From positions 1 to 13,545 of the forward strand of contig MHDQ01000217.1 of assembly GCA_001803565.1 (NCBI GenBank): a stretch of 13,545 nucleotides of DNA. The letters are read 5' to 3'. How positions within the stretch are numbered: position 1 is the stretch's first letter; the number at the start of each line of letters is the position of its first letter. Source of the stretch: Nitrospinae bacterium RIFCSPLOWO2_12_FULL_45_22. GTDB taxonomy: Bacteria; 2-12-FULL-45-22. Made by a program: the position numbers and the translations under genes. Positions 2,963 to 10,883 of this stretch are shown piece by piece. The notes beneath the pieces were generated by a model, which saw nothing but the letters and a program-made list of their open reading frames with translations, had not been told where the DNA came from and searched no databases.

Positions 2963-3433
2963 ATGGCTAGAGGAAGGATAAAAAAATGGTCGTTGGGTAG
3001 TACTCTGGTAATAACTCTCGTTTGTATGAGCGGATGGTGCTATGCTGGGGATATGTTCTGCAAGATGCACCCGGGCTCTATTTGTACCTGTCCGGAGTTT
3101 TGTAAGCTATCTTTTCCTGCCCAACCTGAATCTGGAGATAAGGGACACGATTCTTGTCAGCGTATTTCTCATACCAGACCAGATAAGTCCCTTAAAGAGC
3201 GTACCGATACGCAATCTGTCCGTGATCACTATTGTTGGTTAATCAATCCGGATTGTGGTGGGCCTCTTCGGACCAATAAATTATTCGCCCAACCTGATAC
3301 ATTGCTTATCCTACCTGCCTACGCAAACACTTCTCCTACTTACCAGTTCAGTAAATTTTTCTTGGATGATCTAATCCTTCCCCTAAAAATCTGTTTGGAA
3401 CCACCATCTCACCCACCTGAGAGTATCTCCTGA
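2963..3433 (+). CDS. Secreted Cys/His-rich protein, putative periplasmic copper-binding partner
   Basis: A 156-residue precursor. The basic MARGRIKKW followed by a hydrophobic stretch (11-28) ending CYAG forms a clear signal peptide, probably cleaved near residue 28 or 29, so the product is exported. The mature part holds eight cysteines (33, 41, 43, 47, 65, 91, 98, 144) and five histidines (36, 62, 70, 89, 150). They cluster in the pattern C33-x-M-H-x4-C-x-C-x3-C47 and in HDSC and HYC. Such density of soft ligands suggests metal binding or disulphides. It is encoded 306 bp upstream of an OprC/NosA-type copper receptor, so copper handling is the natural inference. I do not recognise a named family. 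The ribosome-binding site is weak; ATG 2963 is chosen because it gives a complete signal peptide. Confidence 0.65.
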   Translation: MARGRIKKWSLGSTLVITLVCMSGWCYAGDMFCKMHPGSICTCPEFCKLSFPAQPESGDKGHDSCQRISHTRPDKSLKERTDTQSVRDHYCWLINPDCGGPLRTNKLFAQPDTLLILPAYANTSPTYQFSKFFLDDLILPLKICLEPPSHPPESIS

Positions 3434-3444
3434 TTGTATAAAGC

Positions 3445-3466
3445 GTCATTAGTCACTGGTCATTAG
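3445..3466 (-). repeat. Heptad repeat, three units of GTCAYTR type
   Basis: The units GTCATTA, GTCACTG and GTCATTA follow one another with an exact 7-bp step. They are the reverse complement of the repeat near 1234-1256, so this is a dispersed repeat family. Confidence 0.55.
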
Positions 3467-3499
3467 CTTGACATTATCACATTAGAAACCGATGCCTTC

Positions 3500-3592
3500 G
3501 TAGAGAGGGGGGGCCATTCTTATCCCGCTCCTGAAACAAGTTCAGGACTGGTTTTAAGGCGGGGTTAGAAAACTCCACTTATCGTTCTCTAC
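3500..3592 (+). other. Foldable RNA/DNA segment upstream of the receptor gene
   Basis: An outer stem can pair GTAGAGA (3500-3506) with TCTCTAC (3586-3592). Inside, ATCCCGC (3522-3528) can pair with GCGGGGT (3559-3565) with one G-T pair, and it runs directly into the hairpin TCCTGAA-acaag-TTCAGGA (3529-3547). The inner hairpin matches a palindromic repeat common in many genomes, so the structure may be a repeat and not a regulatory leader. No terminator T-run follows. Confidence 0.35.
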
Positions 3593-3739
3593 AGGGAAAT
3601 GTGACCGTGTCAAATTACTCCAGCTTTTTGTTTTACACTTTTATTTTAGCTCGATCTTTGCCTGTTTGTCTTTGCGTCCTTTGTATCTCGGCAGTGAAGA
3701 ATGTCCCAAGATAGCGATAAAAGTGGAGGAGATCATACT

Positions 3740-5737
3740 ATGCGAAAAATCTTTCTTATCATCCTGGGAACTATTTTTTTGCTAGTATCTAAGCCGGCCT
3801 TTTCCCAGGAAGGAGAAGGTTCGGGGAAAAAGGTCTTGAAGCTCGAAGAGATAAAGGTTATAGGGGAGAGGATAGAGTCTAGTCCATATCCTGCTTCGAT
3901 CATAAAGAAAGAGGATATAGAGGAATTTACCGCCCGGGATGCCGGTGAGATGCTCCGGAAGGTAACAGGACTTTCAGCCGTTCGCCGGGGGGCTATTGGT
4001 CTAGACCCGGTCATCCGGGGTCTCAAGGAAGACCGGATTACCTTATTATTTGATGGGACCAGGATGTATGGTGCCTGTCCGGGCAGGATGGACCCACCAT
4101 CCATGCATGTAGATATTGACGAACTAGAGGGCCTGGAGGTTATCCGGGGGCCCTACTCGGTCATCCAGGGGCCCGGGATAATGGGTGGTGTGATCAATCT
4201 CATAAAAAGAAAGCCGACAAGGTTTGAAGAGTTTGAAATCCACGGAGAAATAGATTCCGGCTTTGATAGCACGGCCTCTGGTAAAAAGGGCAGGCTTACG
4301 CTTTGGGGTGGGGCTAAACCCTTCGATTTTCAACTGAGTACGGGTGGGAAAAATTATCGTGACTACCGCTCTGGCGATAGTAAGGTGCATGACTCCCGTT
4401 TCAGGGATATCAATTATGACCTTAGGGTCGGTCTTAACCCTACCCATATGCAGCGGCTGGAATTTGGTTATGGACAGGGATTTGGCCGAGATATGCGCTA
4501 CCCGGCGTTGGCCATGGATGGACGGGATGATGATACGGAAATGTATAGCCTGGAATATTCTTTTAAGGAACCCTTACCCCGCATGAAATACCTCTCCGCT
4601 AAACTCTACCGGAACCGAGTAGACCACCTGATGGATAACAAACATAAACCGACCTTACCTATGATGTTTATGCAGACCGATAGCCATACGGATACCTATG
4701 GTGGCAAGCTGGAAACAGGTTTTAGCTTTGCCCCCTGGGGATCTCTAATCACTGGCATAGATTTTTATGAGCTATCAGCAGATAACAATCGGTTAATGAT
4801 CCGAGATATGCCTATGACCATGTGGTCAAAGATATGGCCCGAGGCATATATAAATGATTTAGGAGGATTTATCGAATACCAGCTTGATCCTTTTCCTAAA
4901 CTGAGTACTACTCTGGGTTTTAGGGCTGATGGAGTAAGGGCCGATGCCCAGCAATCTTCTCCCCAGGGGGAGACCAATGTCAGTGGTAACCTGGGACTAA
5001 TATACCACCTGATGGATAATATTGATTTGAGAGGCTCTCTGGGACGTGGAGTTCGAACGGCCAACCCGAATGAGAGATACTCTAATTATTTTATTAACAC
5101 AGTGGATAACTATGATTATCTGGGAGACCCGGAGCTCGACCCAGAAAAGAGTCTCCAGCTTGACCTGGGGCTCCAGGCCAGGTTTCAGCGACTCAATATC
5201 AACCTTTCAGCCTTCTATAACCAGATAAACGACTATATAAGCGGGAAGATCAATCCTAACCTGCGCCCCACGACTACAGGAGCCAGGGGTGTTAAGCAAT
5301 ATGTCAATATTGAACGGGCTACCCTGCGGGGGGTTGAACTAGCTGGTAGGTTGTTGGTAACACCAACGGTTTCCCTGTTGGGTAACCTGGCTTATACCTG
5401 GGGCAATGATGAAGAAGCTGATGCCCCGCTACCGGAAATACCGCCTCTAGAAGCTAATTTGGGGCTTAGGTATGATGATCTGGAAGAGAGGTTCTGGATC
5501 GAGATGGATGCTAGAGTTGTAGATGATCAGGACCGGGCAGCCCGGTCGTTTGGGGAAGATCAGACCGGGGGTTTTTCTACCTTTGGGGTACGGGGTGGTA
5601 TCCACCTCCAGAAAGGTTACGAGCTAATAGTAGGGGTGGAAAATATCTCTGATAAAAAATATCATGAACATCTAAACCGAGCCAATTTACCTGAACCAGG
5701 AATTAATGTCTATGCCTTAGTAAAGGCAGGGTTCTAG
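3740..5737 (+). CDS. TonB-dependent outer-membrane copper receptor (OprC/NosA type)
   Basis: A 665-residue TonB-dependent receptor that would import copper across the outer membrane. ATG 3740 is chosen because GGAGGAG (3725-3731) lies 8 nt upstream and a signal peptide follows at once (1-22, ending PAFSQ); the ATG at 3701 lacks this. A TonB-box-like LEEIKVIGER is at 35-44, the plug spans about 45-165 (VIRGPYSV, GGVINLI), and the barrel ends in a terminal Phe. Two features match copper receptors: C113-PGR-M117 in GACPGRMDPP and H296-L-M298 in DHLMDN. These are the two halves of the CxxxM...HxM copper site known from Pseudomonas OprC. Met-rich patches occur at PMMFM (307-311) and MIRDMPMTM (353-361). 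A Cys/His-rich secreted protein precedes it and TonB follows. Copper is inferred from these motifs; another soft metal is possible. Confidence 0.85.
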   Translation: MRKIFLIILGTIFLLVSKPAFSQEGEGSGKKVLKLEEIKVIGERIESSPYPASIIKKEDIEEFTARDAGEMLRKVTGLSAVRRGAIGLDPVIRGLKEDRITLLFDGTRMYGACPGRMDPPSMHVDIDELEGLEVIRGPYSVIQGPGIMGGVINLIKRKPTRFEEFEIHGEIDSGFDSTASGKKGRLTLWGGAKPFDFQLSTGGKNYRDYRSGDSKVHDSRFRDINYDLRVGLNPTHMQRLEFGYGQGFGRDMRYPALAMDGRDDDTEMYSLEYSFKEPLPRMKYLSAKLYRNRVDHLMDNKHKPTLPMMFMQTDSHTDTYGGKLETGFSFAPWGSLITGIDFYELSADNNRLMIRDMPMTMWSKIWPEAYINDLGGFIEYQLDPFPKLSTTLGFRADGVRADAQQSSPQGETNVSGNLGLIYHLMDNIDLRGSLGRGVRTANPNERYSNYFINTVDNYDYLGDPELDPEKSLQLDLGLQARFQRLNINLSAFYNQINDYISGKINPNLRPTTTGARGVKQYVNIERATLRGVELAGRLLVTPTVSLLGNLAYTWGNDEEADAPLPEIPPLEANLGLRYDDLEERFWIEMDARVVDDQDRAARSFGEDQTGGFSTFGVRGGIHLQKGYELIVGVENISDKKYHEHLNRANLPEPGINVYALVKAGF

Positions 5738-5762
5738 CGTTTTTCTGAAAATGACCTTTTCT

Positions 5763-5785
5763 GGCAGGCGAGACGTCTGTCCTAT
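5763..5785 (-). repeat. Degenerate inverse copy of the 2805-2827 palindromic repeat
   Basis: Read on the minus strand, it matches the 2805-2827 repeat at about 18 of 23 positions, sharing TAGGAC and CGTCTCGCC. It lies between the receptor stop and the tonB start, 26 bp after the stop codon. Confidence 0.45.
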
Positions 5786-5800
5786 GGTTAGGCGTTTCGC

Positions 5801-6601
5801 ATGACTAATTTTCTTTTTCCTATGTGGTCAAAAGACTGGGTAATGAAGATATCTCTTCTGGTTTCTCTAATGGTACATGCTTCCCTTTTCCTGGCAACCA
5901 TAGGGAAAAGGCAACTATCTCTTGATATGAGGGAAATAGTATATATAAGGATAATTGCTGACCATCCCTCCACTTCAACCGGAAAAATCAAGCAGTTGCC
6001 AGTATATACTTATCCGCTCCATAGTAAAATGGCCAGGGTAAAGCACCTCAAAGAGAAATCCCCCCTCCAAAAGGAGGTTAGCAAAAAAGCAGAAAAGAGG
6101 AAGTCCAAAGATAATTTAGTGACACCCACACAACCTGGGTCTCGTCCAGGGTTGGTTTCGGAACCAAAACCGGCCCCTAAACCCACTGGTACTGTCTTAT
6201 CTGGAGTTAGTTATAAACCTCAACCACCAGTCCTCTTTCTCAGTAAAGAGCCAACGAAGCCCTTGGGTAGTGACGGTATCTCTCCAGAAAAGCAGAGAGA
6301 TATCTTATTGCAATTCCAGTCATGGGTCAGGCAAAAAATTGACCAGGCCAAGCTCTATCCACGACAGGCCAGGCAAATGGATATTGAAGGGAGGGTATCT
6401 ATACGCTTCAATATTTTGAATAATGGCCAGGTAGGCGGGATTACAGTAATTACCTCTTCCGGATATAGTATCCTGGACAAGGCGGCCAAGAGGATGGTAA
6501 ATAAAGCCGCTCCCTTTGTGCCAATACCAGAGCAATTAAAAAATCAGAGTACCATCCAGATAGAAGTGCCTATCATTTTTAGCCTGGCAGAAGAGCAATG
6601 A
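5801..6601 (+). CDS. tonB: Energy transducer TonB
   Basis: A 266-residue TonB, which carries proton-motive energy from ExbB/ExbD in the inner membrane to outer-membrane receptors. One N-terminal membrane helix (15-34) carries SLMVH (22-26), matching the SxxxH motif that is essential in E. coli TonB. A basic Lys/Pro-rich periplasmic linker follows (about 75-155, with EPKPAPKP at 121-128). The C-terminal TonB domain (about 168-264) contains YPRQARQMDIEGRVSIRFNI, NNGQVGGITVITSSG and LDKAA. The gene starts 63 bp after the receptor stop, which suggests a dedicated TonB for the copper receptor. The start is uncertain: ATG 5801, 5822 and 5843 are all possible and none has a strong ribosome-binding site. 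No exbB or exbD lies nearby. Confidence 0.9.
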   Translation: MTNFLFPMWSKDWVMKISLLVSLMVHASLFLATIGKRQLSLDMREIVYIRIIADHPSTSTGKIKQLPVYTYPLHSKMARVKHLKEKSPLQKEVSKKAEKRKSKDNLVTPTQPGSRPGLVSEPKPAPKPTGTVLSGVSYKPQPPVLFLSKEPTKPLGSDGISPEKQRDILLQFQSWVRQKIDQAKLYPRQARQMDIEGRVSIRFNILNNGQVGGITVITSSGYSILDKAAKRMVNKAAPFVPIPEQLKNQSTIQIEVPIIFSLAEEQ

Positions 6602-10710: not shown

Positions 10711-10883
10711 TTTGCCACAGAGACACAGAGGCACCGAGATAAACGAAATGACACACAAAGGGAAGCTAAAAGTGTAAAGTGCAAAGTGTAAAGCTAAGGA
10801 ATATTTCCTTAGTTTTGCACTTTTCGCTTTAAGCTTTACATTTAGTCTCTGTGCCTCTGTGCCTCTGTGCCTCTGTGGCTAAA
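10711..10883. repeat. Nested inverted repeat with 7-bp and 8-bp periodic units
   Basis: A 173-bp element. The outer arms are TTTGCCACAGAG... (from 10711) and ...CTCTGTGGCTAAA (to 10883). The right arm has four 8-bp units, GTCTCTGT then GCCTCTGT three times (10845-10876); the left arm has about three (ACAGAGAC, ACAGAGGC, ACCGAGAT). The inner arms carry 7-bp units (AAGTGTA, AAGTGCA, AAGTGTA at 10770-10790), opposed by TTTGCAC and TTTACA on the right. The centre is CTAAGGAA-TAT-TTCCTTAG (10794-10812). It lies between the MetE-type and methyltransferase genes and could end transcription or be a mobile palindromic repeat. Confidence 0.75.

Follow-up and report, generated by a model that had tools for sequence, protein, structure and literature searches.

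Contig MHDQ01000217.1 of the uncultured Nitrospinae bacterium RIFCSPLOWO2_12_FULL_45_22 was analysed as a single window of 13,545 nt. Its + strand carries three successive open reading frames (ORFs) encoding a small Cys-rich exported protein, a TonB-dependent receptor and a TonB protein (Table 1). These genes are read here, with a probability of roughly 60%, as a copper-acquisition transcription unit in which an OprC-type receptor and its TonB are placed under a CruR-like copper-sensing leader. All three ORFs are present where an earlier annotation made from the DNA without database searches (the sequence-only reading) had put them, and its description of the second as a copper receptor of the OprC type, next to a TonB, holds. 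The role assigned to the first ORF has changed: its 10 Cys residues and its signal peptide are confirmed, but the proposed Cys/His-rich exported component of the uptake machinery is more likely to be a regulatory leader peptide.

Receptor and TonB

Translation of the receptor is assigned to the start at position 3740, which is preceded by the Shine-Dalgarno sequence GGAGGAG; the alternative, longer frame that begins at 3701 lacks a good ribosome-binding site. The protein has the Pfam domains PF07715 (plug; E-value: 2.6e-18) and PF00593 (barrel; E-value: 3.3e-44). Among curated families it best matches TIGR01778 (TonB-dependent copper receptor; 300.7 bits), followed by a heme receptor family at 186.7 bits. 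In a phmmer search of PDB sequences it is most similar to OprC (6fok; E-value: 3.4e-55), and the best match other than OprC is PhuR (E-value: 1.5e-25). The window receptor is 28% identical to OprC and closest to the receptor of G241 (36% identity; genomes and loci are designated G### and L### as labelled in the analysis).

The copper ligands of OprC are C143, M147, H323 and M325 (PMC8610252). In the alignment, CPGRM of the window receptor falls on CPNRM of OprC and DHLMDN falls on DHIMDN, so that the CxxxM and HxM motifs noted in the sequence-only reading coincide with the OprC ligands, and their residue numbers are correct for the 3740 start. The window receptor is a member of the OprC clade in two maximum-likelihood trees (support 100/99). 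BtuB, CirA, FepA and the second TonB-dependent receptor of the genome fall outside this clade, and the receptor is thus grouped with neither siderophore nor cobalamin receptors. Both ligand motifs are found in 11 of 11 clade rows of the second tree (the window receptor and 10 others) and, at the OprC positions, in none of the 12 outgroup receptors. The Met-rich loops described earlier are also present, as the clusters M308/M309/M311 and M353/M357/M359/M361, which could be part of a methionine track towards the copper site. By homology, the putative function of the receptor is to bind ionic copper at C113, M117, H296 and M298.

A structure model of the receptor, built from a shallow alignment, has a mean predicted local distance difference test score (pLDDT) of 63.5 and a predicted template modelling score (pTM) of 0.68. 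The first 20 Foldseek rows for this model are all OprC. VIA-align also ranks OprC first, with BtuB, FyuA and others within about 2-3 Z units; because this margin is small, fold alone is not decisive for the identity of the receptor. The loops that carry the ligands and the Met clusters are of low confidence, so the geometry of the copper site is taken from the alignment to the OprC crystal structure.

OprC of Pseudomonas aeruginosa and NosA of P. stutzeri are like the window receptor in fold, CxxxM-HxM ligands, Met clusters and TonB dependence, and oprC also stands behind a cruR homolog. The window locus differs in the low identity of its receptor to OprC, in that this receptor lies under the TIGR01778 cut-off, in the TonB gene that follows and in a leader of another sequence class; its host is also only distantly related. 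The receptors of L002-L010 (Bacteroidota and Nitrosomonas), most of which have leaders ending in RAPP or RGPP, form a separate clade that lacks CxxxM and HxM at the OprC positions; they are perhaps copper-regulated receptors with another ligand.

The ORF at 5801 has the TonB C-terminal domain PF03544 (E-value: 3.1e-21) and scores highest among the genome's four TonB_C matches; it is likely to energise the receptor. ExbB-ExbD-TonB genes are present on contig 66, and contig 46 has a Tol-like set. Neither ExbBD nor an inner-membrane copper transporter was found within the window, and the locus is therefore not the self-contained importer that the sequence-only reading had suggested. The same gene order is seen in G331 (L102:5754-8409), where an OprC receptor (696.8 bits) is directly followed by a TonB gene; no leader was found there within 2.5 kb upstream.

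The Cys-rich candidate leader ORF and its counterparts

The ORF ahead of the receptor gene encodes several His residues in addition to its 10 Cys, begins with a typical signal peptide (judged by hydropathy, not SignalP) and ends in EPPSHPPESIS. This C-terminus, overlooked in the first annotation, turned out to be the informative feature of the ORF. Because it combines the signal peptide, a Cys cluster, the C91-x6-C98 pair and this end, the preferred reading of the ORF is that of a copper-responsive leader (upstream ORF, uORF) of the CruR/CutF kind. It has no profile match in Pfam or NCBIfam.

CruR of Bordetella pertussis is a DUF2946 protein encoded ahead of a TonB-dependent receptor. Its translation arrests at a C-terminal RAPP; copper bound to its CXXC motif releases the arrest and brings about Rho-dependent termination, and the spacing of the two motifs (45 intervening residues) is conserved (PMC9426467). 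This arrest has been demonstrated in vitro (PMC12992588). A cruR homolog also precedes oprC in P. aeruginosa (PMC9426467, PMC8610252). CutF is a related case with a CxxxC motif and a poly-proline end (PMC9973294).

The window leader resembles CruR in being the first gene before a copper-related TonB-dependent receptor, in being exported, in the long gap to the next gene and in having a Cys motif about 50 residues (here 49) ahead of a C-terminal Pro-Pro. Unlike CruR, it has no DUF2946 match, carries C-x6-C instead of CxxC and EPPSHPP instead of RAPP, and has an extra N-terminal Cys cluster. With CutF and CutF-like leaders it shares a signal peptide, a CxxxC motif, a Pro-Pro within the last 15 residues and a same-strand gene within 1 kb downstream. 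At 156 aa from the ATG at 2963, it is just above the 150-aa filter published for CutF-like proteins; it also differs from CutF in the absence of a notable stem-loop from the 306-nt gap and in preceding a receptor rather than a multicopper oxidase. The leader would work like CruR or CutF while lying outside DUF2946, and may or may not belong to one of the 29 published CutF-like clusters.

In seven other genomes, too, an OprC-clade receptor gene follows a leader of this kind; four of these genomes are from one phylum. G054, G230, G241 and G102 each have a Cys-rich, Pro-Pro-ended ORF with no Pfam match in this position; no convincing leader is present at the OprC-clade receptors of G331 and L024. 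A hydrophobic start together with a Pro-Pro end and at least four Cys is found in only 11 of the 1903 ORFs of 60-210 aa in 626 kb, and seven of these 11 sit directly ahead of such a receptor. At nine other receptors found by homology, the ORF directly upstream is small, exported and ends in RAPP or RGPP; three of these nine ORFs match DUF2946 (one just below the family cut-off), and the L023 and L025 counterparts are above the cut-off.

The spacing C-x7-C-x-C-x3-C is exactly the same in the window leader and in that of G241 (C49-x7-C57-x-C59-x3-C63); the phylum of G241 is represented by two genomes, one of which has the receptor. The Cys topology of the window leader is also that of the leaders from the G054 phylum, where three more genomes encode an ortholog of the receptor (39-54% identity) and the order leader, YtkA-type lipoprotein, receptor is kept in four of four genomes. 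These four leaders (G054, G386, G389 and G390) differ at most positions and retain the CxC, the C-x6-C and the Pro-Pro tail, which is FHPP in three and FRPPP in one.

The distance between the Cys pair and the tail, with the second Cys of the final pair and the first Pro-Pro of the tail taken as end points, is likewise conserved. It is 49 in the window leader, 49 in G241, 53 in G102, 50 in G230, 52 in G054 and 51 in each of G386, G390 and G389 (49-53 in eight of eight); in four leaders with CxxC it is 47-49. About 50 residues are needed to place a site just outside the ribosome while the Pro-Pro codons are being read. When the middles of the leaders are shuffled, a spacing of 47-53 arises with a chance of 0.06-0.08 each and of 1.6e-6 jointly for five lineages, figures that serve as a guide and not as a formal test because the interval was picked post hoc. 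The His-rich Bacteroidota leaders L002, L003, L007 and L009 lack a Cys pair and have a conserved single Cys 50 residues before Pro-Pro; that of L003 has an additional CC near its end.

The window leader may represent an undescribed class of copper-sensing arrest peptides, found before OprC-clade receptors in several phyla and having a CxC cluster, a terminal Cys pair and a tail with HPP or another Pro-Pro, with no Pfam family. With the unrelated CruR leaders this class would share only the distance of about 50 residues between the copper site and the stall site. This proposal is tentative, its chances being somewhat short of even. EPPxHPP was rejected as a common signature: as a DNA pattern it has many matches in 386 genomes, and at none of the 50 loci inspected was there another small exported Cys-rich ORF with this ending.

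Alternative explanations and proposed model

A number of observations weigh against a CruR-like copper-acquisition unit. The receptor scores below the TIGR01778 cut-off of 472.45 bits; judged from its sequence, it is therefore a deep relative within the OprC clade, new there, rather than a curated equivalog. The receptors with leaders do not form a single clade on the receptor tree. The leader has no clear Shine-Dalgarno sequence, and its codon score is -0.083 bits per codon, versus 0.02 to 0.26 for the other genes of the window. Searches by sequence found no close homolog of it in 60 genomes, including the only one from the same order. Arrest has been demonstrated for RAPP and RGPP tails, neither of which the leader has. 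The spacing of its Cys pair is C-x6-C rather than CxxC, and the predicted RNA fold of the 306-nt gap is not unusually stable (z = -0.5). The codon result is not decisive, because bp2923 of B. pertussis likewise had to be recoded to fit the codon usage of its genome (PMC9426467).

Other searches around the leader were also negative: no homologs by sequence in plasmids or viral contigs, no RNA structure across the receptor start and no consensus sigma-70 promoter ahead of the leader. A bias of C over G, as expected of a Rho site, is found in 67% of 78-nt segments of the leader, the highest value among the features of the window, but this is a weak signal.

The atypical codon use, the weak ribosome-binding site and the lack of a close homolog are what would be expected if the 156-codon ORF were untranslated and its resemblance to a leader due to chance. 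This is unlikely, as an ORF of this length on either strand appears in only 21 of 2000 shuffles of the region (about 1%), the combination of start, tail and Cys content is rare, the cluster spacing equals that of the leader in the very genome with the closest receptor, and the distance from the Cys pair to Pro-Pro fits. Slightly less probable still is the view, in line with the sequence-only reading, that the ORF encodes a stable exported protein that collects or buffers copper for the receptor. The signal peptide, the 10 Cys, the several His and the position next to a copper receptor would suit such a protein. However, the leaders conserve their Cys motifs, their Pro-Pro end and the interval from one to the other, and vary elsewhere, a pattern expected more of a sensor acting as a nascent chain than of a folded carrier. 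In addition, the counterparts in Proteobacteria are DUF2946 (CruR) proteins that have been shown to act in cis (PMC9426467), and a long untranslated gap is typical of copper-responsive leaders.

A leader acting in the direction of CutF, in which bound copper delays the export and translation of the leader and so allows downstream expression, is given a similarly low, marginally smaller probability. The CxxxC motif (C43-C47) and a poly-proline rather than RAPP tail do resemble CutF (PMC9973294), but CutF-type control works through a stem-loop that covers the next ribosome-binding site and seems to require a short gap, whereas the gap here is 306 nt with an ordinary fold, and import activated by copper would be physiologically odd. 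That the cargo is not ionic copper but, for example, silver, zinc or, as for CrtA, a copper chelate is very unlikely: although the ligand is not readable from sequence and identity to OprC is 28%, the four OprC ligands are kept in this receptor and in all clade members examined and are absent at these positions from the outgroup receptors, and receptors of the CrtA type lack conserved Cys or Met (PMC12914433).

Under the preferred reading of a CruR-like leader ahead of a copper receptor, the locus would work in the following way. The receptor would take up ionic copper at its four ligands, and the pull of TonB on the receptor plug, powered by ExbBD encoded elsewhere, would free the copper into the periplasm. 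The 156-aa leader would sense copper during its own synthesis. When copper is low, the ribosome would stall near EPPSHPP, and the receptor and TonB genes would be expressed. At that moment C91 and C98, about 50 residues from the stall site, would lie just beyond the ribosome exit tunnel. Copper bound to C91/C98 would pull the nascent chain onward and relieve the stall, and transcription would presumably end in the 306-nt gap, following the logic of CruR.

Genomic context and copper use

Table 1. Features of the putative copper-acquisition locus (window coordinates)
Feature	Position	Strand	Remarks
Leader ORF, 156 aa	2963..3433	+	Signal peptide, Cys-rich, C-terminal di-proline motifs; candidate copper-responsive uORF
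Leader Cys cluster C33-x7-C41-x-C43-x3-C47	3059..3103	+	Spacing identical to that of the G241 leader
Leader Cys pair C91-x6-C98	3233..3256	+	Candidate copper sensor; 49 residues ahead of first Pro-Pro
Leader EPPSHPP tail, residues 146-152	3398..3418	+	Candidate ribosome-stalling site; 4 codons ahead of stop
Leader-receptor gap, 306 nt	3434..3739	+	Expected site of conditional (e.g. Rho-dependent) termination
OprC-type TonB-dependent copper receptor, 665 aa	3740..5737	+	Assigned from domains, trees and structure match; Shine-Dalgarno at 3740
Plug-domain copper ligands C113-x3-M117 (CPGRM)	4076..4090	+	Aligned to OprC C143/M147
Barrel copper ligands H296-x-M298 (HLM)	4625..4633	+	Aligned to OprC H323/M325
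TonB, 266 aa	5801..6601	+	S-x3-H in N-terminal membrane helix (by inspection); likely energiser of receptor

The neighbouring genes encode an NAD(P)H oxidoreductase, a thiamine-binding protein, a methionine synthase core protein, a methyltransferase, a TetR-type regulator and a FadL-type porin, none of which shows a link to copper. Two 21-nt intergenic repeats form an inverted pair (CCGTAGGACGGGCGTCTCGCC and GGCGAGACGTCTGTCCTATGG; 86%), one at 2803-2823 before the leader and the other at 5767-5787 in the receptor-TonB interval. The intergenic region past the methionine synthase gene (10711-10882) contains tandem and inverted CTCTGTGCCTCTGTG repeats.

Copper enzymes, for which the sequence-only reading had advised a search, are encoded elsewhere in the genome. 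A caa3-type oxidase operon encodes Sco (with CxxxC), COX1 and COX2, the last of which carries the CuA site CAEYCGLRHSYM and a fused cytochrome c. This oxidase is probably the user of the imported copper. Two P1B-type ATPases with CPC are also encoded. Only two TonB-dependent receptors were found in the genome, which is about 85% complete, and one of the two appears to be devoted to copper. The other (G000 contig 145, L082:3988-6018) groups weakly with BtuB.

In the G054 phylum the unit of leader, YtkA-type lipoprotein and OprC-clade receptor (L119:187-6496 and L088:6076-11839) follows a nosD-type gene (scanned in L119), an ABC (ATP-binding cassette) ATPase and a permease. In G389 the leader unit is downstream of NosD, the ABC ATPase and the permease; in G054 a CopD-like gene lies between the permease and the leader, and the arrangement in G386 is alike. 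This order suggests that the unit supplies copper for nitrous oxide reductase.

Little is known about copper uptake in Gram-negative bacteria or about how these shut it off before the metal becomes toxic. If the leader acts as proposed, copper-controlled ribosome stalling would govern OprC-type import far beyond the Proteobacteria, by means of several unrelated leader sequences. The distance shared with CruR would then suggest that different sequences use the same physical principle, and such switches could be discovered computationally by a simple rule: upstream of a copper gene, a terminal Pro-Pro that follows a Cys site at a distance of about 50 residues.

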